Shown here one piece after another: positions 12,917 through 32,395 of a stretch of DNA of 36,040 bases (positions are counted from its first letter, which is position 1; each line of letters starts with the position of its first letter). Position numbers and translations under genes: made by a program. This stretch comes from Mycobacterium sp. (lineage in GTDB: Bacteria; Actinomycetota; Actinomycetes; Mycobacteriales; Mycobacteriaceae): contig JAGQTU010000040.1 in assembly GCA_020438865.1 (NCBI GenBank), positions 1 through 36,040 on the forward strand, in the 5' to 3' direction. Below the pieces are notes generated by a model. The model was not told where the DNA came from. It worked only from the letters and a program-made list of their open reading frames with translations, and did no database searches.

Positions 12917-12919
12917 CCG

Positions 12920-12936
12920 GAGGCGGCCTCAGAGGC
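12920..12936. terminator. Short nested GAGGC/GCCTC inverted repeats between convergent genes
   Basis: The alternating blocks gaggc (12920-12924), gcctc (12926-12930) and gaggc (12932-12936) lie in the 12-base gap between the coiled-coil gene and the hyuA-like gene and enter the latter's last codons. The arms are short and the loops of one base are impossible without opening the stem, so termination here is uncertain. Confidence 0.25.
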
Positions 12937-14974
12937 TTATCACCACGTCCCCGTCGGGGGTCGGACGTGCGGTCTCACCTGGCCCTACGACGATCGTCGT
13001 GAACGGGCCGGCGATGGCTGCCGGACCCGGCACCGTCACCCCGGGCAGCACGTCGTCGAGGTCGTAGATCCGGGCCTCGTGCCAGGCGCCCCCGACCCAC
13101 ATGCGCCGTCGTCCGACGGGATGCAACGCCGTCCCCGCCGGCAGCGGCGCCTGCACCGGTTTCTCGACCTCTCCCACGGCGGTCAGCCGGATGCCACGAA
13201 CGACGGGCTCCTGGGCGCGCGCCTCTATCAGGCGGGCCTCGGAGTTCATCCGGTGGAATTCGGCCACCGCCTGCGCGACGTCGGTGGGGTCGGATACCGC
13301 TATGGCGGTGTCGAAGGTCTGCCCCGGATAGACGAGCAGCAGAGACCATTCCAGCCGGACCCGGTCACCCGGGACGCCCGCGACGTCCAGTTCGTGACGC
13401 GCGTTGTCCTCGAGCTCGCGCGCCAGCCGGGCGAGGTGGTCGCGGTCGACCTCGGCCCACGGCGAGATGTAGCCCCGCGAATCGTCGATGACGTGATCGG
13501 CCGCCAACAGGCCCAGCGCGGACAACCCGGCTGCGGCCCGGGGCACCACCACCGTGCGCATGCCCAGAGCGCGGGCCTGAGTGGTGGCGTGCACACCACC
13601 CATTCCGCCGAAGGCCACCAGGGACAGCTTTCGCGGGTCGGCCCCGGCCAGCGACAGCACGCGCCGAACCGCGTCGGTCATGTTGGCGTCGACGAGGCGA
13701 ACGATCGAGGCGGCGGTCTCCTCGACCCCAAGCCCGACGCGCCGGCCCAGCTCCCCGATGGCCGCGCGCGCCGCCTCGAGGTCCAGGGTCATCCGGCCGT
13801 CGTTGAATCCCGCTGCCGCCAACCGGCCCAACACCAGATCGGCGTCGGTGACCGTCGGTTCGGTGCCGCCGCGGCCGTAGCACACCGGTCCCGGCTGGCT
13901 CTGCGCCGACTGGGGACCGACGTGCAGGACACCGCCCTCCTCCCAGGCGATCGAGCCACCGCCGGCGCCGACCGACGGGATGTCGATCATGGGCAGCCCG
14001 ATGCAGTAGCGGTGGAACCAGTTCCAGTCCATCTTCATCTCGGGCCTGCCGTTGCGGATCAGGCAGACGTCGTAGCTGGTTCCGCCCATGTCGACGCTCA
14101 CCACGTCGCCGACACCCGTGCGCTGGGCGGCCCTCGCCGCGGCGCTGACCCCGCCGGTCGGGCCGGAGCCGATGGTCGCGACCGCGCGTCTGGCGGCGGC
14201 TTCGGCCGTGGCGATACCGCCGGCCGAGGTCGCCACCAGAAGCCGGTGCCGATAGCCGCTGTCGGCCAGACTCCCCGCCAGGCGGCTGAGATAGTGTGCG
14301 ATCGGCGGTCCTACGTAGGCGTTGACCAAAGTGGTCGAGGTTCGCTCGAATTCCGCTGGCTTGGGCAGGATCTCGTGCGACAGGGAGATCATCTCGACGT
14401 CGGGGTACTCGGCCAGGACGATCTCGCGGGCCCGCAGTTCGTGGGCGGGGTTGAGGTAGGAGTGCAGGAAGCAGATGGCGATCGACGTCACCCCGAAGGC
14501 TCGAAGCCGCGCCGCCGCCTTGGCCACCTGCTCCTCGTCGAGAGCCGTCTCGATCCCGCCCTCGGCGGTGAGCCGCTCGTCGACTTCCAGTCGCACCCTG
14601 CGCCGCGCGATGGGAGCCGGCGCGGGCAGCGTCGGATCCCAGATGTCCTCCTTGTAGCAGCGCCTGAACTCGATCTCGTCCCGGAATCCACGAGTGACGA
14701 TCAAACCCGTTGCCGCGCCGTTCATCTGGATCATGGCGTTGTCGGCGGTGGTGGTGCCGTGCACGATCGTCCGCGTCCGCGCCAGCAGGTCGCCGACCGG
14801 GAGGCCCTCGGCCTCGGCGAGCCGTGCGATACCGGCCAGCACGCCGTCGCTCTGATCGCCCTGGGTGGTGGGGACCTTGTCCATCGCCAGCGTGCCGTCG
14901 GGGCGGCGCAGCACGCAGTCGGTGAACGTGCCCCCGACGTCGATGCCGATTCGGTAGTCGCCTGCCGCGCTCAT
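12929..14974 (-). CDS. Hydantoinase/oxoprolinase family subunit A (HyuA-like)
   Basis: The 681-residue ATP-binding subunit has the actin-like fold of N-methylhydantoinase A, 5-oxoprolinase and acetone/acetophenone carboxylase. Motifs are IGIDVGGTFTDC (9-20), VHGTTTADNAMIQ, LIVTRGFRDEIEFRR, SVDMGGTSYDV and AFGGMGGVHA. It activates a carbonyl or lactam with ATP and works with the B subunit encoded directly upstream (ATGA overlap). Family members either hydrolyse cyclic amides or carboxylate ketones. Sequence motifs alone do not separate these. The start at 14974 (MSAAGDYRIG) is taken; the frame extends 43 codons further without family sequence. It is the last gene of the aldehyde dehydrogenase-hyuB-hyuA unit. 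Confidence 0.9.
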   Translation of the reverse strand: MSAAGDYRIGIDVGGTFTDCVLRRPDGTLAMDKVPTTQGDQSDGVLAGIARLAEAEGLPVGDLLARTRTIVHGTTTADNAMIQMNGAATGLIVTRGFRDEIEFRRCYKEDIWDPTLPAPAPIARRRVRLEVDERLTAEGGIETALDEEQVAKAAARLRAFGVTSIAICFLHSYLNPAHELRAREIVLAEYPDVEMISLSHEILPKPAEFERTSTTLVNAYVGPPIAHYLSRLAGSLADSGYRHRLLVATSAGGIATAEAAARRAVATIGSGPTGGVSAAARAAQRTGVGDVVSVDMGGTSYDVCLIRNGRPEMKMDWNWFHRYCIGLPMIDIPSVGAGGGSIAWEEGGVLHVGPQSAQSQPGPVCYGRGGTEPTVTDADLVLGRLAAAGFNDGRMTLDLEAARAAIGELGRRVGLGVEETAASIVRLVDANMTDAVRRVLSLAGADPRKLSLVAFGGMGGVHATTQARALGMRTVVVPRAAAGLSALGLLAADHVIDDSRGYISPWAEVDRDHLARLARELEDNARHELDVAGVPGDRVRLEWSLLLVYPGQTFDTAIAVSDPTDVAQAVAEFHRMNSEARLIEARAQEPVVRGIRLTAVGEVEKPVQAPLPAGTALHPVGRRRMWVGGAWHEARIYDLDDVLPGVTVPGPAAIAGPFTTIVVGPGETARPTPDGDVVISL

Positions 14975-16728
14975 GACGTGCGCCGCTTGCGCTCGAGCTC
15001 GGTGGCCTCCCGGTCGAGTGCCAGCGTCATGTCCGCCAGCGAGCCGGTGATGACGACGCCGTAGTCGCGGAACGCGCCGTCGAGCGAGACGTATTCGTCC
15101 CACACGTCGTCGAGGACGGCCTGCGGGTCGCGGTCCAGGGGGTCACCCCATCCCCCGCCGCCGCCGAAGTCGTAGACCAGTTGCTCGCCGGTGTCCAGCA
15201 GCACCCCGGCCACCGCGGGGTCCACCACCTCGTCGCCGACCACGCAGTGGTCGGGGGCGCCGTTCTGGCCGCCCGCGATGCCGGGATGGGTGTGCCGCTG
15301 GTTGACCACGTACTGGTTGACCCGGGTGGGGGTGCGCACCTCCTTGACGAAGTGGCTGCCGCACCCGCCCCGCCACTGGCCGGGGCCCCCGGAGTCGGTG
15401 AGATAGTTCCGGCCGCGCAGGATGTGCGGGAACAGCTGCTCGTTGATCTCCGCGGTGGCCTTGATCAGGTTTCCGTTGGAGGCCGACAGCGCGCCCCAGC
15501 CGTCGGTGCCGCGGGCGGCGCTCACCCAGCCCGCGCTGACTTCACCGCCGTGGTCGAAGAACGGCTTTCCGGTGCGGGGATCGAGGTCGCCCCACATCTG
15601 CCGTGGGCTGCCGAACTTGTAGCTCTGCGGGCAGCACCGGTCCGGGATGATCTTGCTCATCGCGATCGCGATGGCGTCGCCGACCTCGACACCGGGATGA
15701 TGGGTTCCACTGGAAACCGGTTTCCCCTCAACGGGATTCAGGCAGCAACCTTCAGGAACCCGCAGCTCGATGCAGTTGAAGAAGCCTTCGTTCTTCGGGA
15801 TGGACGGGTCGACCAGGCTGGCGAGCGCGGCGATGACATTGCCCCGGGTGTTGCCGAACGTCGACCACGCGTTGATGTCCGGGCGGGTGTCGGAGCCCTC
15901 GAAGTCGATGATCAGCCGGTCACCGTCGACAGTGATCGCAACGTGAACGTGGATGTCCTGGTTGCCTGCGGGGTCGGAATCGCAGTACACGTCGGCCTCG
16001 TAGGTGCCGTCGGGCCAGCGTGCGATCTCCGCGGAGAACCGCCGGGTGGCGTCGTCGACCGACCACCGGACCGCGGCCTGGACGGTCGCCACGCCGTACT
16101 CGGCGATGATGTCGGTCAGCCGGCGCGCGCCCAGTTGGGCCGCACCCACCTGCGAGCGCAGATCGCCGATGAAGCCCGGCAGCCGGTTGTTGGCTCGCAT
16201 GGTGAGCACCACGTCGCGGCGCTCCCGGCCCGCGTCCACGATCTTGAGCAGCGGGTAACGCACCCCTTCGCTCCAGATGTCCTTGGCGAACACGTTGTAG
16301 CCGCCGGCCATCGCGCCGCCGGTGTCGCCGTGGTGACACTGGATGGAGGCGAACAACGCGACCCGCTGGCCGGATCCCGCCGGGTCGAAGACCGGCGAGA
16401 AGACGTTGACGTCGGGCAGGTGTCCACCGCCGTGGTAGGGGTCGTTCGCAACGATCACATCGCCCGGATAGAGCTCGCCGGCGAAGAACTCGGCGGCGAA
16501 CCGCACCGGCAACGTCGAGGACAACATGAACTGCGGGATGCCCACCGACAGCGCGGCGAGGTGACCGGTGGCGTCGAGGATGGTGGCGTTGCGCTCGTTG
16601 GACTGGTTGAGGATCGGGGTGGTTGCGGTCCGCGACACATAGGTGGCCATCTCGAAACAGATGGTCTCCATCGCGGATCGGATCACACTGGCGGTCACCG
16701 CGTCGACGTCGACATGTACGTCGTTCAT
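14971..16728 (-). CDS. Hydantoinase/oxoprolinase family subunit B (HyuB-like)
   Basis: The 585-residue B subunit pairs with the HyuA-like protein. Family hallmarks are the N-terminal SRTATTPILNQSNERNATI region, the NDPYHGGGHLPDVNVFSPVF motif, SGGPGQWRGGCGS near the C-terminus and FGGGGGWGDPLDRDPQAV close to the end. The start at 16728 overlaps the stop of the aldehyde dehydrogenase gene (ATGA), and its stop overlaps the hyuA start, so the three genes form a tightly coupled unit. No third (gamma) subunit of the acetone carboxylase type is present nearby. That argues slightly for a hydrolase or a two-subunit carboxylase. Confidence 0.9.
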   Translation of the reverse strand: MNDVHVDVDAVTASVIRSAMETICFEMATYVSRTATTPILNQSNERNATILDATGHLAALSVGIPQFMLSSTLPVRFAAEFFAGELYPGDVIVANDPYHGGGHLPDVNVFSPVFDPAGSGQRVALFASIQCHHGDTGGAMAGGYNVFAKDIWSEGVRYPLLKIVDAGRERRDVVLTMRANNRLPGFIGDLRSQVGAAQLGARRLTDIIAEYGVATVQAAVRWSVDDATRRFSAEIARWPDGTYEADVYCDSDPAGNQDIHVHVAITVDGDRLIIDFEGSDTRPDINAWSTFGNTRGNVIAALASLVDPSIPKNEGFFNCIELRVPEGCCLNPVEGKPVSSGTHHPGVEVGDAIAIAMSKIIPDRCCPQSYKFGSPRQMWGDLDPRTGKPFFDHGGEVSAGWVSAARGTDGWGALSASNGNLIKATAEINEQLFPHILRGRNYLTDSGGPGQWRGGCGSHFVKEVRTPTRVNQYVVNQRHTHPGIAGGQNGAPDHCVVGDEVVDPAVAGVLLDTGEQLVYDFGGGGGWGDPLDRDPQAVLDDVWDEYVSLDGAFRDYGVVITGSLADMTLALDREATELERKRRTS

Positions 16729-18194
16729 CGTCGCGAGTCCTCCTCCAGGGCAGGCAGTTTTCCGGCGCTGACCACCGACTGCAGCTCGGTGTATTCCGCG
16801 AGGCCCTCCTCGGCGAACTCCCGTCCGATTCCGGACTGCTTGAATCCGCCGAACGGGCTGGAGATGTCGAGCATGTACATGTTGATTCCGTAGGTGCCGG
16901 TGCGCACCTGACCGGAGACCTCCAGGCCGTGCGCGACGTCTTTGGTCCATACCGAGCCCGCCAGTCCGTAGTCGCTGTCGTTGGCGATCCGGACGGCGTC
17001 GTGCTCGTCGGTGTAGGAGATGACTGTCAACACCGGCCCGAAGATCTCCTCGCGGGCGATCGTCATGCCGTTGTCGGCGTCGGCGAACAGCGTCGGCCTG
17101 ACGTACCAGCCTCGGCCGAGGGGCGAATCATCGCCACCGACAACGATTCTCGCGCCCTGGTCGACGCCGGACCGGATGTAGTCCTGCACTCGGAGCTGCT
17201 GGCGCCGGGACACCAGCGGACCGATGTCGGTCGCCGGGTCGGCGGGGTCGCCCACCACCAGCTCTGACATCATCCCGGCCAGGGCGTCGACGAACTCGTC
17301 GTGCCTACGCTCGCTGACCAGGATCCTGGTCTGGGCTACGCAGGCCTGTCCGTTGTTCATCAGACCGGCCATCTTGAGCCCGGCGACCGTCTTGCCGATG
17401 TGCGCGTCGTCGAGGACGATCGCCGCCGACTTGCCACCCAGCTCCAGGCCGCAACGCTTCAGCTGTTCGCCGCACAGGGACGCGATACGACGGCCCGTGG
17501 CGGAGTTCCCGGTGAAGGCGATCTTGTCGACACCGGGATGGCGCACCAGTTCCTCGCCGGTATCCCGCCCGCCCGGCACCACCGACACCACACCCTCGGG
17601 CAGGCCGATCTGCTCGATCATCTCGGCGACCCACAACGAGTCCAGCGGTGTCTCCGGCGCGGGCTTGACCACCACCGTGCACCCGGCGATGAGCGCGGGA
17701 ATCAACTTGGGCATCAGCAGGTTCTGCGGCACGTTCCAGGGAATGATGATTCCCACTACCCCGACCGGCATTCTGCGCAGGTGCACCTCCCCGAGGAGCC
17801 CGGTGCGGCGCTGCGCCCAGGGGAACGATCGCGCCGCCTGCGTCGCGAGATGCATCATCGAGGCCGCCCCGGCTGCCTGGCCGAGCCTGCTGAAGCTTGC
17901 CGGTGAGCCCATCTCGGCGGTGATCAGATCGGCCATCTCGTCGATGTGCTCCGAATACACCGCCGCCAGCTTCTCCACCGCCGCGATGCGCTCGGCGTGG
18001 CTCAGGTGCGGCCACGGCCCCTCGTCGAAGGCCGTCCTGGCGGCGCGGACCGCCGCGTCGACATCCTGCGCCGAGCCGGCGGCGGAGTGGGCGATGACCT
18101 CTTCGGTGTGCGGGGAGACGATCTCGATTCGATCGCCGCTGCCCGGCTGCCAGTGCCCGCCGACGAATATCCGTTCGTAGGAGGGCACTTTCAT
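16725..18194 (-). CDS. NAD(P)-dependent aldehyde dehydrogenase
   Basis: The 489-residue ALDH-superfamily enzyme oxidises an aldehyde to a carboxylic acid. Catalytic residues are all present: the cysteine in NNGQACVAQ (C285), the glutamate in LELGGKS (E251), the asparagine in PWNVPQ (N154) and K177. The start at 18194 (MKVPSYERIF) has gagagg six bases upstream. An in-frame ATG at 18233 would sit at the predicted transcription start. It is the first gene of the minus-strand unit. The order fits acid production followed by the HyuAB step, but it could equally process the aldehyde from the alcohol dehydrogenase at 24.2 kb. Confidence 0.93.
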   Translation of the reverse strand: MKVPSYERIFVGGHWQPGSGDRIEIVSPHTEEVIAHSAAGSAQDVDAAVRAARTAFDEGPWPHLSHAERIAAVEKLAAVYSEHIDEMADLITAEMGSPASFSRLGQAAGAASMMHLATQAARSFPWAQRRTGLLGEVHLRRMPVGVVGIIIPWNVPQNLLMPKLIPALIAGCTVVVKPAPETPLDSLWVAEMIEQIGLPEGVVSVVPGGRDTGEELVRHPGVDKIAFTGNSATGRRIASLCGEQLKRCGLELGGKSAAIVLDDAHIGKTVAGLKMAGLMNNGQACVAQTRILVSERRHDEFVDALAGMMSELVVGDPADPATDIGPLVSRRQQLRVQDYIRSGVDQGARIVVGGDDSPLGRGWYVRPTLFADADNGMTIAREEIFGPVLTVISYTDEHDAVRIANDSDYGLAGSVWTKDVAHGLEVSGQVRTGTYGINMYMLDISSPFGGFKQSGIGREFAEEGLAEYTELQSVVSAGKLPALEEDSRR

Positions 18195-18338
18195 CGCAGA
18201 CCTCTCGACAATCCGGCCGGTCCGGGTCCACATGACGCTAACATACGAAATGAGACACTTCAGGTGAACTTTGTAAAGCGGGACGTGGGCGTTGAGCGCG
18301 AATCACGATATTCCCGGCACGATGGCACGGAGGGATGG
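18195..18338. promoter_or_regulatory. Divergent control region of the aldehyde dehydrogenase/hyu unit and an SDR gene
   Basis: On the minus strand a promoter is visible: -35 TTCACC (complement of 18263-18268), a 17-base spacer and -10 TATGTT (complement of 18240-18245). An imperfect dyad acttca-gg-tgaact (18257-18270; one mismatched pair) covers the -35 box, as an operator would. For the plus-strand SDR a ribosome site ggaggg (18329-18334) is clear, but no convincing -10 is seen. No regulator gene is adjacent, so one of the island's TetR proteins is a candidate. Confidence 0.45.
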
Positions 18339-19079
18339 ATGGCCTCACGCGAGCGGAACGCGGTCGTCACCGGCGGCAGCGGCGGCATCGGCAAGGCCTG
18401 CGGCCGTCTCCTGGTGCAGCGCGGTTACGACGTCGTCCTCATCGCCCGGCGGGAAACCCCGCTGCGCGAGGCCGCCGAGGACATCGGGGCGCGGTGGGTG
18501 GTCGCCGACGCCTGCGATCCCGCCGGCTTCCCGGCGGCGCTGACCGGGCTCGGGGCGGTGGACCTGCTGGTCCACGCGGCCGGTGTACTCGGGGGCACGT
18601 ACGCCCGCAAACAGACCTTCGAGGACTGGCGGACGATGATGGCCGCCAACCTGGACTCCTGTTTCGTGGTGACAGCGGCCGCACTGCCGTTGATGCGGCC
18701 CGGCTCCCGCTTCGTCTTCATCTCCTCGTCGGCCGCGCACGAGCCGATGCCCGGCCGCACCGCGTACTCCGCGTCGAAGGCGGGGATGAACGCGTTCGCG
18801 CGGGCGCTGGCTCTCGAGGTCGACCGGGACGGCATCAACGTCAACCTTGTCACTCCAGGGCCTGTCGAAACCGAGATGCTGCAAGACGTTCCGTTCGAGA
18901 TGTACGCCGTGACGGTCGACGACGTGGCCGATACCGTCGTCTGGCTCGACACGGTCGCGGGATCCGTCGACCTGCCTGAGATCCGGCTCAACGCCATCAC
19001 CCGGGGGCCGTCGGCACGATCGCCGGTGGTGCCCTCCGAGGCCCGGCGGCGCGCCGCGGGCCTACCTAGTCCGCCATGA
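18339..19079 (+). CDS. Short-chain dehydrogenase/reductase
   Basis: The 246-residue SDR uses NAD(P) to oxidise an alcohol or reduce a ketone. Cofactor motif TGGSGGIG is at 11-18, HAAGV near 79-83, active-site serine about 130 and the YxxxK pair Y143/K147 in TAYSASKAG. The C-terminal 40 residues (after DTVVWLDTVAGSV) diverge from the usual GQxxxVDGG ending and are Arg/Pro-rich, so the substrate end is unusual. The ATG at 18339 is chosen for the ggaggg site just before it. The 3' end overlaps the convergent VOC gene by 14 bases. Confidence 0.87.
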   Translation: MASRERNAVVTGGSGGIGKACGRLLVQRGYDVVLIARRETPLREAAEDIGARWVVADACDPAGFPAALTGLGAVDLLVHAAGVLGGTYARKQTFEDWRTMMAANLDSCFVVTAAALPLMRPGSRFVFISSSAAHEPMPGRTAYSASKAGMNAFARALALEVDRDGINVNLVTPGPVETEMLQDVPFEMYAVTVDDVADTVVWLDTVAGSVDLPEIRLNAITRGPSARSPVVPSEARRRAAGLPSPP

Positions 19080-19518
19080 CCGCGAGCCTGCCCATCGGCA
19101 GCAACTCGACCATCACACCGTCCGGGTCGGAGACGGTCGCCGCCATCCCGCCCCCGGGGGTGGGCATCGTCCTGGGGACACCGCCGAGGCCCATGTGGGC
19201 CAGTCGGTCCAGCACCGCCGGGACGTCGACCTGGACCGACAGCAGGAACACGCCCCGCGCGGGCACGCCCCGCTGAGGCGGAGACGCCGTGATCGCCGGG
19301 ACCCCCAGGTCGAGAAGTTCGATGATCCCCGAGTCCGGGTGCGCGGCGTCGCCGAGGAATACCGTGCGGACCGCTTGGGTGCGGACCCCCAGCAACCCTT
19401 CGAGGTCGGCCTGCAGGGCCTTGTCGACGAGGACGGTCAGCCCCAGTCCATCGCGATAGAACCGCAGCGACTCGTCGAGGTCCGCCACACAGACACCGGC
19501 GTGGTGCATGGTCGTCAT
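19066..19518 (-). CDS. VOC (glyoxalase/dioxygenase superfamily) protein
   Basis: The 150-residue single-domain protein has the beta-alpha-beta-beta-beta repeats of the vicinal oxygen chelate fold: HHAGVCVADLDESLRFYRDGLGL at the start and SDPDGVMVELLPM near the end. Possible metal ligands are H5/H6, E67 in IIELLDLG and E137. Members include methylmalonyl-CoA epimerase, glyoxalase I and extradiol dioxygenases. In an acyl-CoA cluster an epimerase- or isomerase-like role is attractive but unproven. It is the last gene of the unit starting with TetR at 24.09 kb, 19 bases after the thiolase-like gene. Confidence 0.82.
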   Translation of the reverse strand: MTTMHHAGVCVADLDESLRFYRDGLGLTVLVDKALQADLEGLLGVRTQAVRTVFLGDAAHPDSGIIELLDLGVPAITASPPQRGVPARGVFLLSVQVDVPAVLDRLAHMGLGGVPRTMPTPGGGMAATVSDPDGVMVELLPMGRLAVMAD

Positions 19519-19537
19519 CGGGAATATCCGTATCCAC

Positions 19538-21828: not shown

Positions 21829-21851
21829 GAGACTTCCTCTTCTGTTGGCCG

Positions 21852-24199: not shown

Positions 24200-25291
24200 A
24201 TGAGCGAACGCGGTGCGATTCTCCGGGCGGTTGGAGAACCACTGCGGGTCGAGGACATCACCCTCGCGCCGCTCGCGCCCGATCAGGTACGCGTGCGCAT
24301 CGCCGCCAGCGGCGTGTGCCACTCCGATCTGTCCCAGGCCACCGGTGCGCTGCCGGTCGGCACACCCTGCGTCCTGGGCCATGAGGGCGCCGGAGTCGTC
24401 GAGGCGGTCGGTGCCGAGGTGCACCACGTCGCGGCCGGGGACCACGCGGTGATCTCGTGGGTGCCGGCCTGCGGACACTGTTGGTTCTGCCGACGGGGCG
24501 AGGTTCACCTGTGCCGCAACGCCATCCGCGATGCCTACTCGATGCCGTATGCCAGTGATGCCGCGGGCACGGCCCTGTTCACGTCGATGGGTGTGTCGAG
24601 CTTCGCGACGGCCACCAACTGTCTGGCCCGGGCCGTCGTCCCGATCGACCCCGACATTCCGCTGGAGATCGCGTCCCTGATCGGGTGCGGCGTCGCGACC
24701 GGCGCGGGCGCCGCGCTGAACACCGCCCCGGTCGAGCACGGCAGCTCGGTCGCGGTCGTCGGCCTCGGCGGGGTCGGTCTGGCATCGCTGATGGCGGCGA
24801 AGGTACGGGGCGCCGCCGAGATCATCGCGGTCGACCCGGTGCCGGCACGCCGGGAGGCCGCGCTCACGCTGGGCGCGACACACGCCGTCGACCCGGCCCA
24901 GGGCGAGGTCGCCGACCAGATTCGCGCCGTCACCGGCCGCCGGGGCGCCGACTACGTGTTCGAGGCGGTCGGCCGCCAATCCACCATCGAGAGCTCGATC
25001 GCCGCCACCCGCCGCGGTGGCACCACGTGCGTCGTCGGTGCGTCGCCCGTCGACGAGCGGGTGTCGCTGTCGGCCTACGACCTCTACATGCACGGTAAGA
25101 CCCTGGTGGGGTGCCAGTACGGTTCGGTGGTTCCCGATCGGGACTTCCCGATGTTGCTCGACCTGTGGCGGGCCGGCCGGCTTCCGCTGGACCGGCTGAT
25201 CACCGGACGCATCGCGCTCGACGAGGTGAACCGCGCGTTCGACGATCTGGTGCACGGTAAAGGCATTCGCTCCGTCATCGTCAACGAATGA
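24200..25291 (+). CDS. Zinc-dependent alcohol dehydrogenase (MDR family)
   Basis: The 363-residue enzyme oxidises an alcohol to an aldehyde or ketone with a nicotinamide cofactor. Catalytic-zinc ligands are C40 (GVCHSD), H61 (GHEGAG) and C163 (GCGV). Structural-zinc cysteines are C91, C94, C97 and C105. The Rossmann motif GLGGVG is at 188-193. The layout is that of class III-like, long-chain or aryl alcohol dehydrogenases. The ATG at 24200 is chosen over the GTG at 24191 because gagg sits eight bases before it. It forms a two-gene unit with the AttH/CrtC-like gene 13 bases downstream. The aldehyde dehydrogenase at 16.7 kb could take its product. Confidence 0.94.
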   Translation: MSERGAILRAVGEPLRVEDITLAPLAPDQVRVRIAASGVCHSDLSQATGALPVGTPCVLGHEGAGVVEAVGAEVHHVAAGDHAVISWVPACGHCWFCRRGEVHLCRNAIRDAYSMPYASDAAGTALFTSMGVSSFATATNCLARAVVPIDPDIPLEIASLIGCGVATGAGAALNTAPVEHGSSVAVVGLGGVGLASLMAAKVRGAAEIIAVDPVPARREAALTLGATHAVDPAQGEVADQIRAVTGRRGADYVFEAVGRQSTIESSIAATRRGGTTCVVGASPVDERVSLSAYDLYMHGKTLVGCQYGSVVPDRDFPMLLDLWRAGRLPLDRLITGRIALDEVNRAFDDLVHGKGIRSVIVNE

Positions 25292-25304
25292 GATCGAGGC
25301 ATCA

Positions 25305-26687
25305 ATGGACAGCACTGACACCGACACGTGGCGGCACTACCCCTTCCGGCTGGTGCCCGGCGACCCCCTGCTCGACTTCCCGGCCGCCGAGGGCGCTCAC
25401 CCCGGCTACGAGTCGGACACCTGGTATCTCGCAGGCACACTGACCGGCGAGCAGTCCGGTCGGCACTACGCGTTCATCACGATCTTCAACCGCAACCGGC
25501 CCGGCGGCGAGGTGGTCGCCGACTTCCACACCTTCGCGCTGTTCGACATCGACGGCGGCACATACGGCACGTTCACCGACTACGACATGCCACCCAAGAA
25601 CATGGAGCCCGGTGCCCGCCCCAAGCTGACGTGCGCCGAGGGGCACCTCGACCTCAGCTACGAGAGCAGCGCGGGAAGGACCACCTGGACCGCGTGCCGC
25701 GACGGTGCCGGCGAGCTGATCCCCTACACCTATGACTTCGCCGCGTTCGGCCGCGACAATGCCGGCGCCGCAATGGAATTACGGTTGCACCTGACCCCCA
25801 CCCGGCCGCCGGTGCCGGTGGGGGCCGCGCGCCACAACGGCAGGATCGTCGCCTGTATCCAGGACGGCACCTACTCGTACTTCCAGACCGGGACGCAGCT
25901 CGCCGGGACGCTGCGCTGGGGCGAGACCCACGAACCCGTCGTCGGTCACTCGGGCCACATCGACCGGCAGTGGTTCCCGAGCTACGCGGGTGGCGGCGGC
26001 ACTGGGGGCGACCCCCGCGGTCAGGCGCACGAGTGGCACACCATCACCCTGGACAACGGTGTGGACCTGTCCGTGTGGCGGCAGTTCGACCGCCGGATAG
26101 GCAACGCGCTGGTGCCGTTCACCGGAATCACCGCCGCCTACGCCGACGGCGCGGCACCCGAGTGCGCCGAGGACCTCGAGGTGGTCACCACCGGCTATGT
26201 GCGCTGGCCCGACGAGGTCCGCAGCTTGATGCGCCCGCCGTCGAAGCCGAGGTACCTGCCGGAGCGCCATACGCTGTCGTCGGCCGAACTGGAACTCGAA
26301 CTGACGGGAGAGCCGCTGGTGCGGGCCCCGGCGCATGCGCTGCCGATCGAGTACATGGAAGGTCCCTATCGCTATCACGGCACCATGCGCGGCCGGCCCG
26401 TCACGGGAACGGCGCTCTACGAGGCCACCAACGCCATGTACCGCGACTGGGAACTGATCGACGTGCTCGCCACCCAGATCACCGCCGCCGGTGCGCGATC
26501 CGAGCCGCTCACCGCGGCGGTGGCCGAGGCGCGTTCGCATATCGCGCACGGCGACAATCAGACCACCGTGGACTTCCTGGACGGTCGTGTGCGGCCCCTG
26601 TTGGCCGCGCTGCCCGACGAGGTGGCCGGTGAGCTGATCGCGATCCTCGACGACCTGGCCGACGCCGTCCGCAACGATCTTCGATAG
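25305..26687 (+). CDS. AttH/CrtC-like lipocalin-fold protein (putative hydratase or isomerase)
   Basis: The 460-residue protein has no signal peptide or membrane segments. It is rich in beta strands and aromatics: WYLAGTLTG (40-48), HYAFITIFNR (54-63), DFHTFALFD (73-81), and HSGHIDRQWFPSY (215-227), which resembles the conserved Asp/Trp motif of the hydroxyneurosporene synthase (CrtC)/AttH superfamily. Family members hydrate isoprenoid double bonds or reshape natural-product skeletons. Many relatives are uncharacterised. The C-terminal 70 residues are helical and could be an added domain. A gagg site precedes the ATG. Co-transcription with the alcohol dehydrogenase suggests both act on the same lipophilic substrate. 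The family call is tentative, the gene is not. Confidence 0.6.
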   Translation: MDSTDTDTWRHYPFRLVPGDPLLDFPAAEGAHPGYESDTWYLAGTLTGEQSGRHYAFITIFNRNRPGGEVVADFHTFALFDIDGGTYGTFTDYDMPPKNMEPGARPKLTCAEGHLDLSYESSAGRTTWTACRDGAGELIPYTYDFAAFGRDNAGAAMELRLHLTPTRPPVPVGAARHNGRIVACIQDGTYSYFQTGTQLAGTLRWGETHEPVVGHSGHIDRQWFPSYAGGGGTGGDPRGQAHEWHTITLDNGVDLSVWRQFDRRIGNALVPFTGITAAYADGAAPECAEDLEVVTTGYVRWPDEVRSLMRPPSKPRYLPERHTLSSAELELELTGEPLVRAPAHALPIEYMEGPYRYHGTMRGRPVTGTALYEATNAMYRDWELIDVLATQITAAGARSEPLTAAVAEARSHIAHGDNQTTVDFLDGRVRPLLAALPDEVAGELIAILDDLADAVRNDLR

Positions 26688-26692
26688 GCTCC

Positions 26693-27856
26693 TCAGCCGT
26701 TGGGCGCCAACAGGATCGGAAGCGTCACCGTTTCCCGCAGCAGCGTCGAGGCACCCGTCTGCACGCCGTCGAGCACCCGGTAGTGCGGCCACCGGCGCAG
26801 CACCTCGGTGAACACGATCTTCGCCTCCAGTCGGGCCAGCTGGGCACCCAGGCAGAAGTGCTCGCCGATGCCGAATGCCAGATGGGGGTTGGGCGCGCGC
26901 GTCACGTCGAACTCGGCGGCGTCCGGGCCGAACACCGTCTCGTCGCGGTTGGCGGCGGCGTAGAGCATCACCAGGTATGAGTCGGCGCCGACGTCGACCC
27001 CGTCCAGCCGCACCGGGCACGTCGTGGTGCGCGACATCGCGACGATCGGCGTGACCCAGCGGAGCATCTCCTCGACGGCGACCGGTATCAGAGAGGGGTC
27101 AGCGGCCAGCACCTCGCGCTGTTCGGGATGCTCGGCCAACGCCACCAGTCCGCCGCTGATGAGGTGGCGGGTGGTTTCGTTACCCGCCACCAGCAGGCTC
27201 ATGCAGAAGCCCAGTTGTTCGGCTCTGGTCAGTCCGGCGTCCGCGGTGATCGCGGTGAGCAGGTCGTCGGGCGGGTCCGTCTCGGCGGTTCGCGCGTCGA
27301 GTTTGGCGTTGAAGTAGGTGAAGAAGTCGATGGCGGCCATCGCGCGGGGATCGGTCGGGTCGGTCGCGGCGATCGCGATGGCGTCCGACCAGGTGCGAAA
27401 CGTCGGCAGGTCGTCGGGCGGTACCCCCAGCATGTGGGCGATCACCAGGATGGGCACCGGGGCACTGATCGCATCGACCGCGTCGATCGGAAGCGTCGGA
27501 TCGATGGCGTCGAACGCGTCGGCCACGATGGCCTCGACGACCGGCGTGAGCTGCGCGACGCGACGCACCGTGAACCCCTTGTTCACGATCTGGCGCATCG
27601 CGACGTGGCGCGGCGGGTCGACGTACAGAATCGACTCGGCGCCGGTCACCGTGCGTTTCAGGTCCCCGATCAACACACCCCTGGCCGAGGAGTAGGTGGC
27701 CGGGTCCTTGCTGATCGCGACGATCTGCTCGTGGCCGGCGATCGTCCAGAACCCGGCCTCGGGTTGGCGGGCCACCGGAGCGCTGCGGCGCAGTTCGGCT
27801 AGTTCGGCGTCGGGGCCGTGCTGCCAGAACTCCGGGTCGGCGACATTCGGGACCAT
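26693..27856 (-). CDS. Cytochrome P450
   Basis: The 387-residue soluble bacterial P450 inserts one oxygen atom into its substrate using electrons from a ferredoxin. The heme-binding loop FGIGEHFCLG has Cys335, the I-helix AGNETT is at 224-229, ExxR is at E263-R266 and the C-helix HxxxR pair is H84/R88. The length is at the short end for actinobacterial P450s. The start at 27856 (MVPNVADPEF) follows a gaggagg site in the 17-base gap after the TetR gene, and the longer frame has no P450 sequence. The CYP family cannot be assigned by eye. No ferredoxin or reductase gene lies in the window. The 3' end is five bases from the convergent AttH/CrtC-like gene. Confidence 0.94.
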   Translation of the reverse strand: MVPNVADPEFWQHGPDAELAELRRSAPVARQPEAGFWTIAGHEQIVAISKDPATYSSARGVLIGDLKRTVTGAESILYVDPPRHVAMRQIVNKGFTVRRVAQLTPVVEAIVADAFDAIDPTLPIDAVDAISAPVPILVIAHMLGVPPDDLPTFRTWSDAIAIAATDPTDPRAMAAIDFFTYFNAKLDARTAETDPPDDLLTAITADAGLTRAEQLGFCMSLLVAGNETTRHLISGGLVALAEHPEQREVLAADPSLIPVAVEEMLRWVTPIVAMSRTTTCPVRLDGVDVGADSYLVMLYAAANRDETVFGPDAAEFDVTRAPNPHLAFGIGEHFCLGAQLARLEAKIVFTEVLRRWPHYRVLDGVQTGASTLLRETVTLPILLAPNG

Positions 27857-27873
27857 CGTCGGCACTCTCCTCC

Positions 27874-28446
27874 TCAGCGCGCCGGCAGCGCGGCTGCCGC
27901 GCGGATCTGCCTGCGGGCCGCCGCGGGATCGGGATCGGGAAAGACGTAGTGGCTCAGCGCGGTTCGCGCGATCGCCCCGGCCAGGTCCCCGGGCCTGAAT
28001 TCCTCGCCGATGCCGCCCTCGCGGGCGCACTGCGCCAAGACCACCATCAGCCCCTCGGTCATCATCGGCAACGCCTGCGCCATCTGATCATGCGCGAAGC
28101 CCGGTTCGAGATCCAGCAGCCGGCCCGGCGGCTGGTCCTCGACGAAGGTCACGACGACGTCGACCGCCGCCTCCAGTCGGGCGATGCCGGTGACGGCGGA
28201 GGTCGCCCGCTCCATCGCCACGTTGAAGCGCCGAACCTCCTCCCTCCCCAGGGCGTCGATGAGTTCCTCTTTCGACGCGAAGTAGCGGTACAGGGTCGGC
28301 CGGGAGACCCCGGCGACACTGGCAACGTCCGAGAGCGAAAGCTTCCGTGCGCCGCTACGGAAGATCAGGCGGCGGGCCGCGTCGAGGATCCGGCGGCCGG
28401 GGTCGTGGTGATCCGAGGCCGACCGGCGGGGCTCCGCACTCGACAT
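27874..28446 (-). CDS. TetR-family regulator (P450-linked)
   Basis: The product has 190 residues. The helix-turn-helix KLSLSDVASVAGVSRPTLYRYFASKEELIDAL lies near 35-66, followed by a helical sensor domain containing EDQPPGRLLDLEPGFAHDQM. The ATG at 28446 has ggagg four bases upstream. An in-frame ATG at 28461 falls inside the operator dyad and is rejected. It sits between an SDR gene and the P450 gene on the same strand, directly after a large nested inverted repeat. It therefore probably represses its own promoter and that of the P450. Confidence 0.9.
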   Translation of the reverse strand: MSSAEPRRSASDHHDPGRRILDAARRLIFRSGARKLSLSDVASVAGVSRPTLYRYFASKEELIDALGREEVRRFNVAMERATSAVTGIARLEAAVDVVVTFVEDQPPGRLLDLEPGFAHDQMAQALPMMTEGLMVVLAQCAREGGIGEEFRPGDLAGAIARTALSHYVFPDPDPAAARRQIRAAAALPAR

Positions 28447-28459
28447 CGATCCTCCGCGC

Positions 28460-28493
28460 ATTACAGAGTTACATTGCGTGTAACCACTGTAAT
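28460..28493 (-). promoter_or_regulatory. Nested double palindrome: likely TetR operator of the tetR-P450 genes
   Basis: Within the 76-base gap 28447-28522, attacag (28460-28466) pairs perfectly with ctgtaat (28487-28493). Inside it gttaca (28468-28473) pairs perfectly with tgtaac (28479-28484) around ttgcg. Thirteen pairs share nearly one centre, and each half holds two TTACA-type units. On the minus strand TACAGT (complement of 28486-28491) fits the TANNNT -10 box, so a bound repressor would cover the promoter. The TetR ATG follows 14 bases after the dyad. Confidence 0.75.
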
Positions 28494-28522
28494 ACCCGAA
28501 CAGGAGGTTCGTGGCATTCGAA

Positions 28523-29326
28523 TCAAATGAAGTCGGAGCCGCCGTCTACGTTGACCGTGGCTCCGGTGACGTAGCCGTTGCGTCGCGAGGCCAGGTACGT
28601 CGTGATGGACGCGATCTCCTCCGGCAGCCCGGCGCGGCCGAGGTCACAGGGCTGGTGAAAGTTGTTGTCGATCCAGGTCATCACGTCGACCGGATTCGTC
28701 GCGTCCAGGCCGTCGGCAGCCAGGATGTCGCGCAGGTTCTCGGTGAAACTGGCCGTCACGATGGTGCCCGGGCACACGCAGTTGACCAGGATGCCGTCCT
28801 TGGCAAGGCTTTTCGACAGGTTCTTGGTGACGCTGCTCAACGCCGCCTTCGCCGCGGTGTAGGCGACGATCCGCGGGTTCTGCCGCTGGATGGAATGCGC
28901 GGACAGGGTGACGATGCGCGCCCAGTCGGCGCCCCGCAGCAGGGGAAGCGCGGCCCTGATCGAGCGCACCGCCGACATGGTGCCCAGCGCGAACGCGGTG
29001 TCCCACTGTTCGTCGGTCATCTCCTCGAAGTAGCCGTCGCCGGGCCCGATGGTGTGCACCAGGCTGTTCAACACCCCCCACCTCTCCCCGACTGCCGCGA
29101 AGCCCGCCGCGATTGAGTCGGCGTCGGACATGTCCACTCCGATACCCACGGCGTCGGGAGCCCCGACCGCGCGCAGGGACTCGACGGCCGCGTCGAGCGC
29201 CGCCCGCCCTCTCGCCATCACCGCGACACGCGCCCCCTCGGCGGCCAGCGTCTGGGCGATCGCCAGACCCATGCCCTTGCTGCCACCGGTGACGACTGCG
29301 GCCGATCCCGCCAGACCCAGATCCAC
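28523..29326 (-). CDS. Short-chain dehydrogenase/reductase
   Basis: The 267-residue classical SDR has NAD(P) motif TGGSKGMG (13-20), serine near 142 in TLSAHS, the YTAAK catalytic pair, and the family-typical ending YVTGATVNVDGGSDF. It catalyses reversible alcohol/ketone conversion, so it could act after the hydratase or the P450. The GTG start at 29326 has aagggaa six bases upstream. It follows the TetR gene of the unit by 15 bases. After it comes the 76-base gap with the operator, so the next two genes can also be transcribed separately. Confidence 0.92.
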   Translation of the reverse strand: MDLGLAGSAAVVTGGSKGMGLAIAQTLAAEGARVAVMARGRAALDAAVESLRAVGAPDAVGIGVDMSDADSIAAGFAAVGERWGVLNSLVHTIGPGDGYFEEMTDEQWDTAFALGTMSAVRSIRAALPLLRGADWARIVTLSAHSIQRQNPRIVAYTAAKAALSSVTKNLSKSLAKDGILVNCVCPGTIVTASFTENLRDILAADGLDATNPVDVMTWIDNNFHQPCDLGRAGLPEEIASITTYLASRRNGYVTGATVNVDGGSDFI

Positions 29327-29341
29327 GATCGTTCCCTTCGA

Positions 29342-30022
29342 TTATCCAGTTATTCTGTCAGCGAATAGAATTCGATCGATGGCTTCGGGCCCCACCCCGA
29401 GGCCGCGTAAGCAGAACCGTTGAACCCTGACCCGGAGTCCGGACGAGTCATGGCCGGCTTGGGCCCATTGCCGTTCGATGTTGGACCAGACGACACCGTG
29501 GATCGACACCGCCTCGTCGAGGGGATCGATCTCCGCGAACAGTCCCCGGTCCCTGCCGGCCCTGAGCTGCTCGACGAGCGGGCGCAGGACCTCGTCATAG
29601 GCGGGGCCGACCAGCTCCGGGGCGACGAACATCTGCGACTGCGCCTCGAGCGACAGCCGCCGCAGATCCGACCCGACCCGATCGTCGTAGGCCAGGTCCA
29701 GCCGCCCGTCGATCCAGGCCGCCACGGCACGAACCGGATCCGCTGCGGCCGCCATCACCGGCTGGAGTCGTCGCATCTCGGCGCGTGCGGTCTCGAGGAA
29801 CAGCGCGGAGACCAGCTGATCCTTGGAATCGAAGTGCCGGTAGAAGGCCCGGGTGCTCAGCTGCGCCCGGCCGAGCACCGCGGCGATGCTCAGCGCCCCT
29901 ACTCCGTTCGCCCGCACGATCTCCCCGGCCGCTCCGAGAATCGCGACACGGACCTGCGGGTCGGGGTCGAGTTTTCTGCGCCCCTTGGCGCCGGCTCGCT
30001 GCGCGGTGTCAGGCTGTGGCAT
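29342..30022 (-). CDS. TetR-family regulator (block C)
   Basis: The product has 226 residues. After a basic N-terminal tail of about 24 residues comes the DNA-binding domain with ALSIAAVLGRAQLSTRAFYRHFDSKDQLVSALF at about 43-75, then a larger helical ligand domain with AYDDRVGSDLRRLSLEAQ. It overlaps the sulfotransferase stop by 14 bases and precedes the SDR gene by 15, so it is inside the unit it may control. The dyad upstream of the first gene of the unit (32434-32450) is the obvious candidate target. Confidence 0.88.
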   Translation of the reverse strand: MPQPDTAQRAGAKGRRKLDPDPQVRVAILGAAGEIVRANGVGALSIAAVLGRAQLSTRAFYRHFDSKDQLVSALFLETARAEMRRLQPVMAAAADPVRAVAAWIDGRLDLAYDDRVGSDLRRLSLEAQSQMFVAPELVGPAYDEVLRPLVEQLRAGRDRGLFAEIDPLDEAVSIHGVVWSNIERQWAQAGHDSSGLRVRVQRFCLRGLGVGPEAIDRILFADRITG

Positions 30023-31154
30023 CGTATGCCGCGAGGTACTCGCTGAAGGCGTCGCGCACCTGGTCCTCGGTCAGCCCGTAGTCGGCCAACTCGTAGACGT
30101 GGGCTCCGTGCCGGCCCGGCTGGTGCCCGTCGGCCCATTCCCGCACCTTGGCGCGGGCCGCGTCGGTGAACTCCAGGCCGAGCCGCTCGTAGCTGTCGGC
30201 CACCGTCTGCACCGCGTCGTCCTGAAGGTCGGCGAACGACACGTCGACGAATCGGTCATCGCCGAACGTCCTGCGAAACTCCATCGCCCGTTGCACGCCC
30301 TTGGACCACCAGGCCAGTTGCTCGGCTCCCAGTTCGTGCGGATCCCGACGCTCGCTGCTCCAGCTGCGCACATACGCGATAAGGCTGCACACCGACCCGA
30401 GCACCTTCGCCGGATCACGATGGCTCCACAGGAATTTCGCGTTCGGGTAAGCCTCGACGAACGCCTCGAGCGCGAACATGTGCACGGGGGTCCGCAGGTG
30501 CCACAGATTCGGCTTGCAGTGCCACTGAAGGAGTTTGAGCACCTGCCGGTGGTAGTCGTAGGTCTCGCGCATGTCGGTGTCCATCAACCACGCGGTGTAA
30601 CTGGGCACCCGGACCACCCCGTCGAAGTGATAGGTCCGGAAGCTCATGCCCATCAGGTCTTGACACTCGGTCGGGGCTTCGGGTTCCGAACTCAACATGG
30701 TCTTGAACTCCGGGAACATGCTGTCGATCATGGCGATTCCCTCGGCGGCCTGCGCGATCCTGGGATCGGTGTACTGCGTGGCTGCCTCCGGTGGCGGCAC
30801 CGGCGCCTGGGACTCCCAGGTCCGCAGGGACCGGAACTGTGGATCGTTGGCCACCAGCTGACCCAAAGCCGTTGTACCCGTGCGGGGCAGGCCGAGGATC
30901 ACCACCGGGCCCTGGATGACCTCGTCATCGATCTCCGGATGGCGCTTGTAGGTCTCGACGATCTTGAGCCGCTGGATCAGGGCATTGCTGATGGTGGCGT
31001 GCTGAATCACCGCCCCGAGTTCGTTCAGGTCCGCTTCGGCGTTCAGCGCGTCGACCGTGCGCTCGAGACCCTCGCGGTAGTACGGCGAGCCGAAGTCGTC
31101 CAATCCGGTCGCCGCGCGGGCACCGTCCTCGAGTTGGTCTGGGGAGAGTGTCAT
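30009..31154 (-). CDS. Sulfotransferase (PAPS-dependent, mycobacterial Stf-type)
   Basis: The 381-residue cytosolic protein has the PAPS phosphosulfate loop GLPRTGTT (88-95) and the 3'-phosphate site FLWSHRDPAKVLGS (Arg246, Ser254). It would transfer sulfate to a hydroxyl group of a small lipophilic compound. It belongs to the large mycobacterial group that also includes, from memory, Rv3529c-like proteins, most without known substrates. The ATG overlaps the DUF1214 gene stop by four bases. A P450, SDR and alcohol dehydrogenase nearby suggest a hydroxylated substrate; a true sulfating role, or binding of a sulfated compound, is unproven. Confidence 0.9.
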   Translation of the reverse strand: MTLSPDQLEDGARAATGLDDFGSPYYREGLERTVDALNAEADLNELGAVIQHATISNALIQRLKIVETYKRHPEIDDEVIQGPVVILGLPRTGTTALGQLVANDPQFRSLRTWESQAPVPPPEAATQYTDPRIAQAAEGIAMIDSMFPEFKTMLSSEPEAPTECQDLMGMSFRTYHFDGVVRVPSYTAWLMDTDMRETYDYHRQVLKLLQWHCKPNLWHLRTPVHMFALEAFVEAYPNAKFLWSHRDPAKVLGSVCSLIAYVRSWSSERRDPHELGAEQLAWWSKGVQRAMEFRRTFGDDRFVDVSFADLQDDAVQTVADSYERLGLEFTDAARAKVREWADGHQPGRHGAHVYELADYGLTEDQVRDAFSEYLAAYDATA

Positions 31155-32395
31155 CGGTAGAACCTCGCGTGGACGGCCCGGCGACGCGCCTCGATGACCC
31201 TGGCGCGCTCATCGGCGGTGGTCGTCGCGGTGCCGGCAGGCAACTCGGACATGACGTCGTCGATCTTGACGACTCGCGAGGCCGGCACCGGCGCGCTCTC
31301 GGTCCGCACGCAACGAAGTAACATCGCGCCATTGCTGTATCCGGCGGTGTCGAGCCAGTTCGCCACCCCGGGGTCCCGGGCCGACAGGACGAACCGCGCC
31401 ACTCCATCGGGATCGACAGCCGCCTGGTGGCCGTTGAGGCTGGACTGGTGACGCCCGTAGTTGATGGTCTCCAACCACGGATTCCCCAGCGACAGACTCC
31501 AATAGACGCCTTCGGGCGGTTTGAGCTCCAGGATCAGCGCCTCGTCGGGCTGCAGCGCGAATCGTCCTATCACAGGCCGGTTTTCAGCGGCCGCGCCCAT
31601 CGAGCTCATGTCGGCCGGCGGTAGGAAACCGTTGGCCGGCGGCATCGCGCCGAAGTCGAGGAAGAACTTGAGGTTGTCGTGGACGAAGTCGCCGAGGGCG
31701 TGCAGCTGGCGCGACACCGAGGCTTCCGGATCCAGGGAGCGCTCCTCGGGTTCGACCGCGTCGCCGAGCCGCTCGATCTTCAGGGCCGCCGGCACCTCGG
31801 TGTCCCAGTCGTAGAGGAAGTTCCGGACGGTCAGCACCGGGTGGTCGCCGGCCAGTCGCAGCCAGTTGCCCTCGCGTGCGTCGGTCGACAGGACCACTTC
31901 GAAGTTCCCGTCGCCGTCGACGTCGAGGTCGTCGACCAGACAGTTGGCGGTCGCCGCCATCCCGTCCATGGTCTGTAGGCCGACGTAGCGGGCGGTACCC
32001 CGGTTGCCGAACAGCCGGTAGGTCTCCCCCGCCCTCAGGTTGGCGTTCAGATACACGCAGTCCGGGCACTCGAGTCCCCACGTGACGACGTCGTCCATAG
32101 CCGCCCGGTTGACCGCGAGCACGGGGTCCGGCTCTGCCCGCAGCGCCATGTCGACGCCGACCGCCAACAACACCAGCAGGTGGCGCATGCCGGACGCGTA
32201 GTCGACGCGGTTCCTGTTGACCGGCGTCGACGCGACGAGCCGCTCGGCGGCGGCCAGCCGGTCCTGCAGGTGAGCCCACGCCCCGGCGAGATCTGCGGCC
32301 TCGCGGCCGCCTCCCGACAGGGCGGCCTCGGCGATCGAGCTCGGCAACCAGGCCATCGGGTTCTTCCACGCCGGCGCGGCATGGTCGTCGACCAC
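31151..32395 (-). CDS. DUF1214-containing protein of unknown function
   Basis: The 414-residue protein has no signal peptide. The C-terminal part (about 280-365) shows the DUF1214 pattern: YWSLSLGNPWLETINYG, then HQAAVDPDGVARFVLSARDPGVANWLDTAG. The N-terminal part includes a long helix (36-56) and a CPDC pair (110-113). DUF1214 proteins often sit near P450s, sulfotransferases and acyl-CoA genes in mycobacteria, with no assigned activity that I know. The GTG start has ggagga four bases upstream. It is the first gene of block C, overlapping the sulfotransferase start, and its promoter carries a dyad. Confidence 0.82.
   Translation of the reverse strand: MVDDHAAPAWKNPMAWLPSSIAEAALSGGGREAADLAGAWAHLQDRLAAAERLVASTPVNRNRVDYASGMRHLLVLLAVGVDMALRAEPDPVLAVNRAAMDDVVTWGLECPDCVYLNANLRAGETYRLFGNRGTARYVGLQTMDGMAATANCLVDDLDVDGDGNFEVVLSTDAREGNWLRLAGDHPVLTVRNFLYDWDTEVPAALKIERLGDAVEPEERSLDPEASVSRQLHALGDFVHDNLKFFLDFGAMPPANGFLPPADMSSMGAAAENRPVIGRFALQPDEALILELKPPEGVYWSLSLGNPWLETINYGRHQSSLNGHQAAVDPDGVARFVLSARDPGVANWLDTAGYSNGAMLLRCVRTESAPVPASRVVKIDDVMSELPAGTATTTADERARVIEARRRAVHARFYR

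Follow-up and report, generated by a model that had tools for sequence, protein, structure and literature searches.

We analysed a contig of 36,040 nucleotides (JAGQTU010000040.1) from the genome of Mycobacterium sp. GCA_020438865.1 (4.96 Mb, 366 contigs, 90.9% complete). The window studied here is this entire contig (C304 in our set), and its central part, positions 12929-32395, holds an island of 17 genes flanked by tkt-tal-zwf-opcA-pgl on one side and ppc on the other. The identity of OpcA is supported by an NCBIfam match, while zwf, tkt, tal, pgl and ppc are putative names given by position. Families were assigned to the island genes by Pfam and NCBIfam profile searches (Table 1), and the gene content agrees with that proposed in an earlier sequence-only reading of the same DNA. 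That reading counted 16 genes in three packed blocks, but its own list sums to 17, and the genes form five strand runs: ALDH-HyuB-HyuA (-), SDR1 (+), TetR1-FadD-ECH-TLP-VOC (-), ADH-CrtC (+), and DUF1214-ST-TetR3-SDR2 with TetR2-P450 (-). All 17 genes are open frames without stops, their starts having been adjusted using ribosome-binding sites. The GC content is 65-73% per kb over the window, and the island is indistinct from its surroundings. Among the 17 genes there is no acyl-CoA dehydrogenase, Cys-thiolase or P450 redox partner, as had been noted before, very short open reading frames (ORFs) having been scanned in part.

Table 1 Features of the island and its junctions. Carriers, number of the 16 other genomes whose fetched stretches hold the gene.
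Feature	Position	Strand	Carriers	Support
127-aa gene downstream of pgl, left flank	12533..12916	+		open frame; homologue in 19/19 ppc-pgl stretches, 42-80% identity
Inserted segment vs G018, 19,599 bp	12907..32505			blastn homology ends; 11 bp in L064
HyuA-like (CapA-like) subunit, 681 aa	12929..14974	-	1	Pfam, NCBIfam, start refined
HyuB-like (CapB-like) subunit, 585 aa	14971..16728	-	1	Pfam, NCBIfam, start refined
Aldehyde dehydrogenase (ALDH), 489 aa	16725..18194	-	5	Pfam; motifs GQAC, ELGGK
SDR1, 246 aa	18339..19079	+	6	Pfam; GGSGGIG, YSASK
VOC/glyoxalase-fold protein, 150 aa	19066..19518	-	10	Pfam
Thiolase-like protein type 1 (TLP), predicted retro-aldolase, 489 aa	19538..21007	-	13	TLP1_add_C; 4egv; Y311/C313
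Enoyl-CoA hydratase (ECH, EchA19-like), 273 aa	21007..21828	-	13	Pfam, NCBIfam, start refined
Acyl-CoA ligase (FadD, CasI-like), 547 aa	21852..23495	-	13	Pfam, NCBIfam
TetR1, about 199 aa	23492..24091	-	3	Pfam, start refined
Tandem operator-like repeats between TetR1 and ADH	24111..24167			pattern scan; related sites in L006
Zn-dependent alcohol dehydrogenase (ADH), 366 aa	24191..25291	+	16	Pfam
CrtC/AttH-fold protein (CrtC), 460 aa	25305..26687	+	10	Pfam; structure model + fold search
Cytochrome P450, about 390 aa	26693..27865	-	11	Pfam; FGIGEHFCLG; CYP125/130/126/142 relatives
TetR2, 195 aa	27874..28461	-	4	Pfam
SDR2, 267 aa	28523..29326	-	8	Pfam
TetR3, 226 aa	29342..30022	-	9	Pfam
Sulfotransferase (ST, Sulfotransfer_3), 381 aa	30009..31154	-	8	Pfam
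DUF1214 protein, 414 aa	31151..32395	-	8	Pfam; 6ans E 1.9e-41
Palindromic operator-like site upstream of DUF1214	32432..32451			exact in 8/9 orthologous loci, one mismatch in L101
41-aa ORF, right flank, 3' side of ppc	32512..32637	-		open; present in L064 too

The window was compared with stretches downstream of ppc from 19 relatives. The best ppc match among the other 60 genomes searched (86%) was found in G018, in whose stretch (L064) a distance of 168 bp separates the ends of the tblastn matches for ppc and the 127-aa gene. Homology by blastn ends at window position 12906 (L064 656) on the left and 32506 (L064 644) on the right, leaving 19.6 kb in the window against 11 bp at the same junction in G018, a segment slightly longer than the gene span. 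An empty site, which the sequence-only reading had suggested looking for, is therefore present in G018. The same reading held that the locus interrupts housekeeping genes; this is ruled out by the 11-bp site and by the two genes at the junctions, the 127-aa gene and the 41-aa ORF, both of which are intact. The empty site is compatible with gain here or with loss in sister lineages, and gain is favoured because the carriers found have the gene set at other places. None of the marks of an integrative mobile element was found: the window has no tRNA site, and the 17 genes include no integrase or transposase family (short ORFs scanned in part). As to terminal repeats, no repeat common to both junctions was seen by eye, and a repeat finder run on each junction separately, which reports within-region repeats, returned just short local pairs. 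At the same junction, G004 and G024 carry a P450-like region (38% and 37%) and G009 a ligase-like region (26%). In the 19 stretches, ppc and the 127-aa gene are separated by as little as 8 bp and as much as 12 kb, and L070 has an additional 12.5 kb between the 127-aa gene and pgl. The ppc-pgl interval (L064-L082; window 12916-32675) is thus documented here as a variable cargo site in mycobacteria, holding up to 12.5 kb elsewhere.

Recurrence of the island was scored in fetched stretches of 16 other mycobacterial genomes at thresholds of at least 60% identity per gene (TetR, at least 50%), with L083 pooled with L006, which has the same gene order. Between 2 and 14 of the 17 genes recur: 14 in CR10 and OTB74, 13 in M. 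septicum, 12 in G458, 11 in RYN_144, 10 in M. sphagni and UR.bin238, 8 in BK086, 7 each in UC10, SupBloom, M. hodleri, G182 and G315, 5 in JS60 and M. arenosum, and 2 in G464, several of these counts being bounded by contig and stretch ends (G464 yielded only a 7.2-kb contig). TLP was counted as absent for such limits in G182 and G315, where it lies 9-10 kb beyond the stretch, and in G464, where it is on another contig. In the controls, 282 kb of ppc-pgl sequence from the 19 relatives plus 126 kb from the own genome, the latter picked for DUF1214, 25-phosphosteroid lyase (PSL) or FadD matches and hence non-random, the best match was 44%; in five stretches with or adjoining a CrtC paralogue, CrtC reached 61% and ALDH 72%. 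In four of four CrtC-paralogue stretches (L124-L127) the paralogue adjoins an ALDH gene (71-72% to the window ALDH).

Of 30 ligase loci returned, 12 had 68-80% identity (11 mycobacterial and L025), and the other 18, at 49% or less, were dropped before counting (L013, L014, L016-L021, L023, L024, L026-L033). L025 (JAKIXW010000049.1), labelled Acidobacteria, holds orthologues of the mycobacterial island at 62-88% and is probably mis-binned. In 148 genomes a ligase orthologue was present in the own genome and G067 (71%) only, the next match being 48%. CrtC matched at E <= 1e-60 in 156 of 396 genus genomes, the own genome included; ten others have it at 67-80%, and the remaining 145 are lower-scoring, mostly 56-66% among the matches listed. 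Roughly one in three of the genomes in this CrtC search has nothing better than such a lower-scoring match. TLP orthologues (75-81%) occur in all five CrtC carriers searched (G182, G315, G458, G464 and G217, which matches RYN_144), and four of four near relatives without the locus (G018, G009, G004, G024) gave 31-37% matches only. Among 12 related genomes searched whole, CrtC was found in ten (E 1e-5) and HyuA, at 80%, in one.

Most window genes are closest to the arrangement of CR10, M. septicum and RYN_144, whereas TetR1 (64%) is common only to SupBloom, M. hodleri and M. arenosum, and ALDH-HyuB-HyuA only to OTB74. Judged by these sequence comparisons, the window copy is a mosaic; among carriers the set is conserved and the order is not. 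As far as the stretches show, the blocks are reshuffled and stay mostly in one neighbourhood, which is partly hidden by contig ends in RYN_144, UR.bin238 and G464, so that the independent scattering that would have spoken against a unit was not seen. It could be argued that unrelated small operons gathered by chance at a ppc-pgl insertion hotspot, given the different cargo in several relatives, the variable gene order among carriers, the mosaic window and its differing operators; against this, 16 genomes have the same genes together, and none of their stretches contains ppc, pgl, opcA or tkt, which makes a chance assembly improbable. Together, the empty site and the recurrence across the genus bear out the earlier proposal of an inserted catabolic locus.

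The TLP is the candidate for the chain-cleaving step. It belongs to the TLP1 family (PF18313, TLP1_add_C, 54.8 bits; cut-off 26.1) and matches MsTLP1 (4egv_A) over residues 70-487 (E 1.3e-70), an orphan protein whose structure is said to have been published in 2012. The two have in common the YSCF motif and an extra C-terminal domain; the window TLP differs in lying in a catabolic cluster next to a hydratase, and its orthologues are 74-81% identical, against 31-38% for TLP1-type paralogues in the same genomes. MsTLP1 is described as having no thiolase activity (PMC3406046). In the window protein, the equivalent of the thiolase nucleophile loop is G87-G88-T89, which has no Cys and is invariant in 8/8, and a Cys-thiolase was rejected on the absence of the nucleophilic Cys of the CxS motif. 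Y311 and C313 are likewise invariant in all eight. The motif Y311-S-C313-F corresponds to Y-D-C-Y in the steroid aldolase Sal, and Y311 aligns with the Tyr of the YDxF motif of Ltp2-type proteins; catalysis by CtSal is reported to use Y302 and C304 of YDCY (PMC12329534). The TLP thus resembles Ltp2 and Sal (6ok1; PMC12329534), whose motif is Y-x-(C/H)-(F/Y), in its thiolase-like sequence, the lack of a nucleophilic Cys, the shared Tyr and, as in Sal, a Cys at +2, but it has S for the motif D, and the window has no separate DUF35 partner gene. These residues suggest that the TLP is more likely a retro-aldolase than a thiolase and that hydratase and retro-aldolase together are the likely means of chain cleavage. 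The absent acyl-CoA dehydrogenase and thiolase may thus be dispensable, since no Cys-thiolase would be needed if the TLP cleaves as a retro-aldolase. Among the papers listed in our literature search, none treats both TLP1 and an aldolase. Should TLP1 prove to be a retro-aldolase, many 'acetyl-CoA acetyltransferase' annotations would be wrong and the cleavage step would be open to direct testing; the aldolase assignment is the most testable novelty of the island.

The CrtC protein matches its Pfam family over the cut-off, and a structure model with fold search placed residues 22-379 in the two-lipocalin fold of the AttH/kievitone-hydratase/25-phosphosteroid-lyase type. It differs from that superfamily's solved structures in its low identity to them (13-18%) and in an extra C-terminal helical part. 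It is probably not an orthologue of 25-phosphosteroid lyase, there being no profile match though the fold is shared. The P450 is related by structure match to CYP125, CYP130, CYP126 and CYP142, and also to CYP124. The best of 86 models for the ligase was the steroid-22-oyl-CoA synthetase CasI (NF052587, 521 bits), and the best of 72 for the hydratase was EchA19 (NF051848, 271 bits). HyuA and HyuB, of an ATP-dependent family, matched caprolactamase CapAB at 516 and 253 bits, and ADH matched NDMA-dependent alcohol dehydrogenase (TIGR03989) at 322 bits. The DUF1214-sulfotransferase-SDR neighbourhood is presumably like that of Rv3531c-Rv3529c. Those genes are listed as hypothetical or possible oxidoreductase in one report (PMC6429209). 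A DUF1214 gene adjoins a sulfotransferase gene three more times in the own genome (L111 9679-11975, L114 7983-10180, L115 4574-6951).

Genes in the relatives' clusters bear on the substrate. After the FadD-ECH-TLP core, the clusters of CR10, M. septicum, OTB74 and G458 carry genes for four further proteins: an APH-type kinase, an alpha/beta-hydrolase, a member of PF10118 and one of 388 aa. Three of these genes (kinase, PF10118 and 388-aa) are also present in JS60, differently ordered. A match to 25-phosphosteroid lyase (9fzn, E 1.1e-25) was obtained for the 388-aa protein, and the kinase matches 9fsg, 9ft5 and 9fu5 (9fsg E 8.3e-39), presumably structures of 25-hydroxysteroid kinase to judge from neighbouring deposit codes. 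The lyase homologue and the APH-type kinase thus occur together in 5 of the 16 genomes. In Sterolibacterium, such a kinase and lyase are reported to dehydrate a tertiary side-chain alcohol (PMC8449060, PMC11061730). UC10, BK086 and M. sphagni have an Ltp2 homologue (BK086: 6ok1, E 1.6e-52), an OB_ChsH2_C protein, a CoA transferase and Mce genes; a 3Beta_HSD-type gene is found in BK086, M. sphagni and RYN_144, and Mce4_CUP1 (Mce4-type uptake) genes are also present in relatives' clusters. Besides an Ltp gene, G182 carries two OB-protein genes and a pair of adjacent acyl-CoA dehydrogenase genes, L117 two adjacent acyl-CoA dehydrogenase genes and a zf-ChsH2/OB protein gene, and L127, one of the CrtC-paralogue stretches, genes for a KshA_C protein, a Rieske ring hydroxylase and a FAS1-like dehydratase. 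KshA_C proteins exceed the cut-off in the own genome (five) and in none of 14 control genomes. The literature search returned nothing relevant on the growth substrates of OTB74. In the own genome, an alpha/beta-hydrolase, APH-type kinase and 25-PSL-like trio (L085 8258-11447, G000:C110) with 27-33% identity to the relatives' genes has enoyl-CoA hydratases nearby and is a possible second tertiary-alcohol dehydration operon.

Taking these data together, we favour, at a probability of about 0.5, a mosaic island that was acquired and whose enzymes would break down the side chain of an alcohol that is steroid-like or another cyclic isoprenoid. We infer that P450 with ADH, the SDRs and ALDH would convert a methyl or alcohol group to a carboxylate, which the CasI-like ligase would turn into a CoA ester. 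The hydratase would then hydrate an alpha,beta double bond, and the TLP1 retro-aldolase would split the resulting beta-hydroxyacyl-CoA, giving a short acyl-CoA together with a ketone or aldehyde; an acyl-CoA dehydrogenase would be unneeded if the double bond were already present. The CrtC/AttH-fold protein may act, by hydration or elimination, on the double bond of a prenyl group or on a tertiary alcohol, DUF1214-ST-TetR3, with SDR2 downstream, may form a separately controlled unit, and it is a guess that HyuAB acts on the released carbonyl or on a lactone or lactam. The lipophilic isoprenoid- or steroid-like alcohol of the sequence-only reading stands as the most plausible substrate, mainly through the relatives' clusters (25-PSL homologue and kinase, Ltp2/OB_ChsH2, Mce4-type and 3Beta_HSD-type genes).

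Several points weigh against a steroid-like side-chain island. The strongest steroid indicators sit in some relatives' clusters, outside the window; HyuAB recurs in 1 of the 16 other carriers; and the cut-offs were not reached for CasI (900), EchA19 (400), CapAB (1000 for each subunit) and TIGR03989 (440). For the TLP, the D of the aldolase motif is replaced by S, the invariant Y351 is one column off Tyr344 of Ltp2 when traced via L095, the C-terminal domain matches the ChsH2-type OB profile non-significantly (E 0.074), the TLP-Ltp profile match is weak (probability 12%, E 0.0024), and the structure model, with a predicted local distance difference test score of 45, is unusable.

The same enzymatic logic could instead serve acyclic or small isoprenoid or methyl-branched alcohols (prenols, terpenoid or phytol-like) without a steroid-like nucleus. 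CrtC-fold hydratases acting on prenyl groups are described, as for kievitone hydratase (PMC5805349), the CYP124 structures matched by the P450 are named methyl-branched lipid omega-hydroxylase, and the window holds no ring-cleavage gene. With CasI as the best ligase model, and with Mce4-type, Ltp2/ChsH2-type, 3Beta_HSD and 25-PSL-like genes in the relatives' clusters, we regard an acyclic substrate as possible and rather less probable than a cyclic one. A modification or detoxification locus, in which a lipophilic compound is oxidized and sulfated but not completely catabolized, would suit the P450, the SDRs and the sulfotransferase-DUF1214 unit with its own operator-like site; it is unlikely, however, since the core that carriers share most widely consists of ligase, hydratase, TLP and ALDH (13/16 for FadD, ECH and TLP), which fits degradation.

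An inserted catabolic island is of a known general kind, with an enzyme set here that seems unusual; none of the titles listed in a literature search that left most subscription journals outside describes the combined cluster. Among the closest known systems are the 25-hydroxysteroid kinase and 25-phosphosteroid lyase of Sterolibacterium and the actinobacterial catabolism of cholesterol and bile-acid side chains (CYP125/142, CasI, EchA19, ChsH1H2-Ltp2). The island has in common with the latter a P450, steroid-acid-ligase-like and EchA19-like enzymes and a thiolase-fold protein predicted to cleave C-C bonds. It differs in that no acyl-CoA dehydrogenase pair, MaoC hydratase pair or Ltp2, as in KstR-type cholesterol side-chain clusters, is found among the 17 genes, in its operators, and in that all equivalog cut-offs were missed. 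A bolder proposal, which we consider very improbable, is that TLP1 forms a distinct acyl-CoA retro-aldolase clade with a fused partner domain and that the island is an aerobic mycobacterial route for tertiary-alcohol isoprenoids, in which sulfation by the 3'-phosphoadenosine-5'-phosphosulfate-dependent ST and a CrtC-fold lyase would replace the dehydration by ATP-dependent kinase and phospho-lyase that is apparently encoded in the sister clusters. A strict pairing of ST and CrtC as the sulfate version of kinase and lyase was rejected: OTB74 (G156) has ST, kinase and lyase but no CrtC match at E 1e-5, and in the stretches of SupBloom, M. hodleri and M. arenosum a CrtC-like gene (57-58%) is present without ST. 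The pairing is therefore retained only within the bolder proposal. The favoured side-chain island would join several orphans in one testable system, namely TLP1, the DUF1214-sulfotransferase pair, and the 25-hydroxysteroid kinase and 25-phosphosteroid lyase homologues beside mycobacterial P450s.

The sequence-only reading also described one regulated pathway, whereas two promoters carry different operator-like sites. Upstream of DUF1214, all nine orthologous loci examined carry a palindrome, GAAAA(C/T)-N4-TTTTC, which is exact in eight of them and has a single mismatch in L101. Of 128 loci, nine contain an exact match, always at the DUF1214 position (L103 is the window; L090 overlaps L022), and in L121, where ST is split from DUF1214, a second copy stands just before ST (14361-14375). 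The window has one such site (0.04 expected; 2 of 100 shuffles reached this count, a palindrome counting on both strands), and the extended palindrome has one site in the own genome. Between TetR1 and ADH, two tandem sites of a different type have 0 and 2 mismatches to their pattern (0.03 expected), with counterparts in L006, which has TetR1 too; as the patterns were derived from the sites themselves, these chance figures are not independent tests. For the palindrome that precedes TetR2, no counterpart was seen in the upstream stretches of the relatives. A single operator shared by all blocks was rejected, the DUF1214 palindrome being single in the window. One simple regulon is argued against because the operators differ at two promoters, and at least two control circuits are likely on these site patterns, with adjacency suggesting which TetR protein would act at which site.

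Outside the island, positions 2748-3725 of the window encode an ATP-grasp-like protein whose score against the model for the D-cycloserine synthetase DcsG is 194 bits (cut-off 360), the gene lying between ctaA and a quinone oxidoreductase-like gene.

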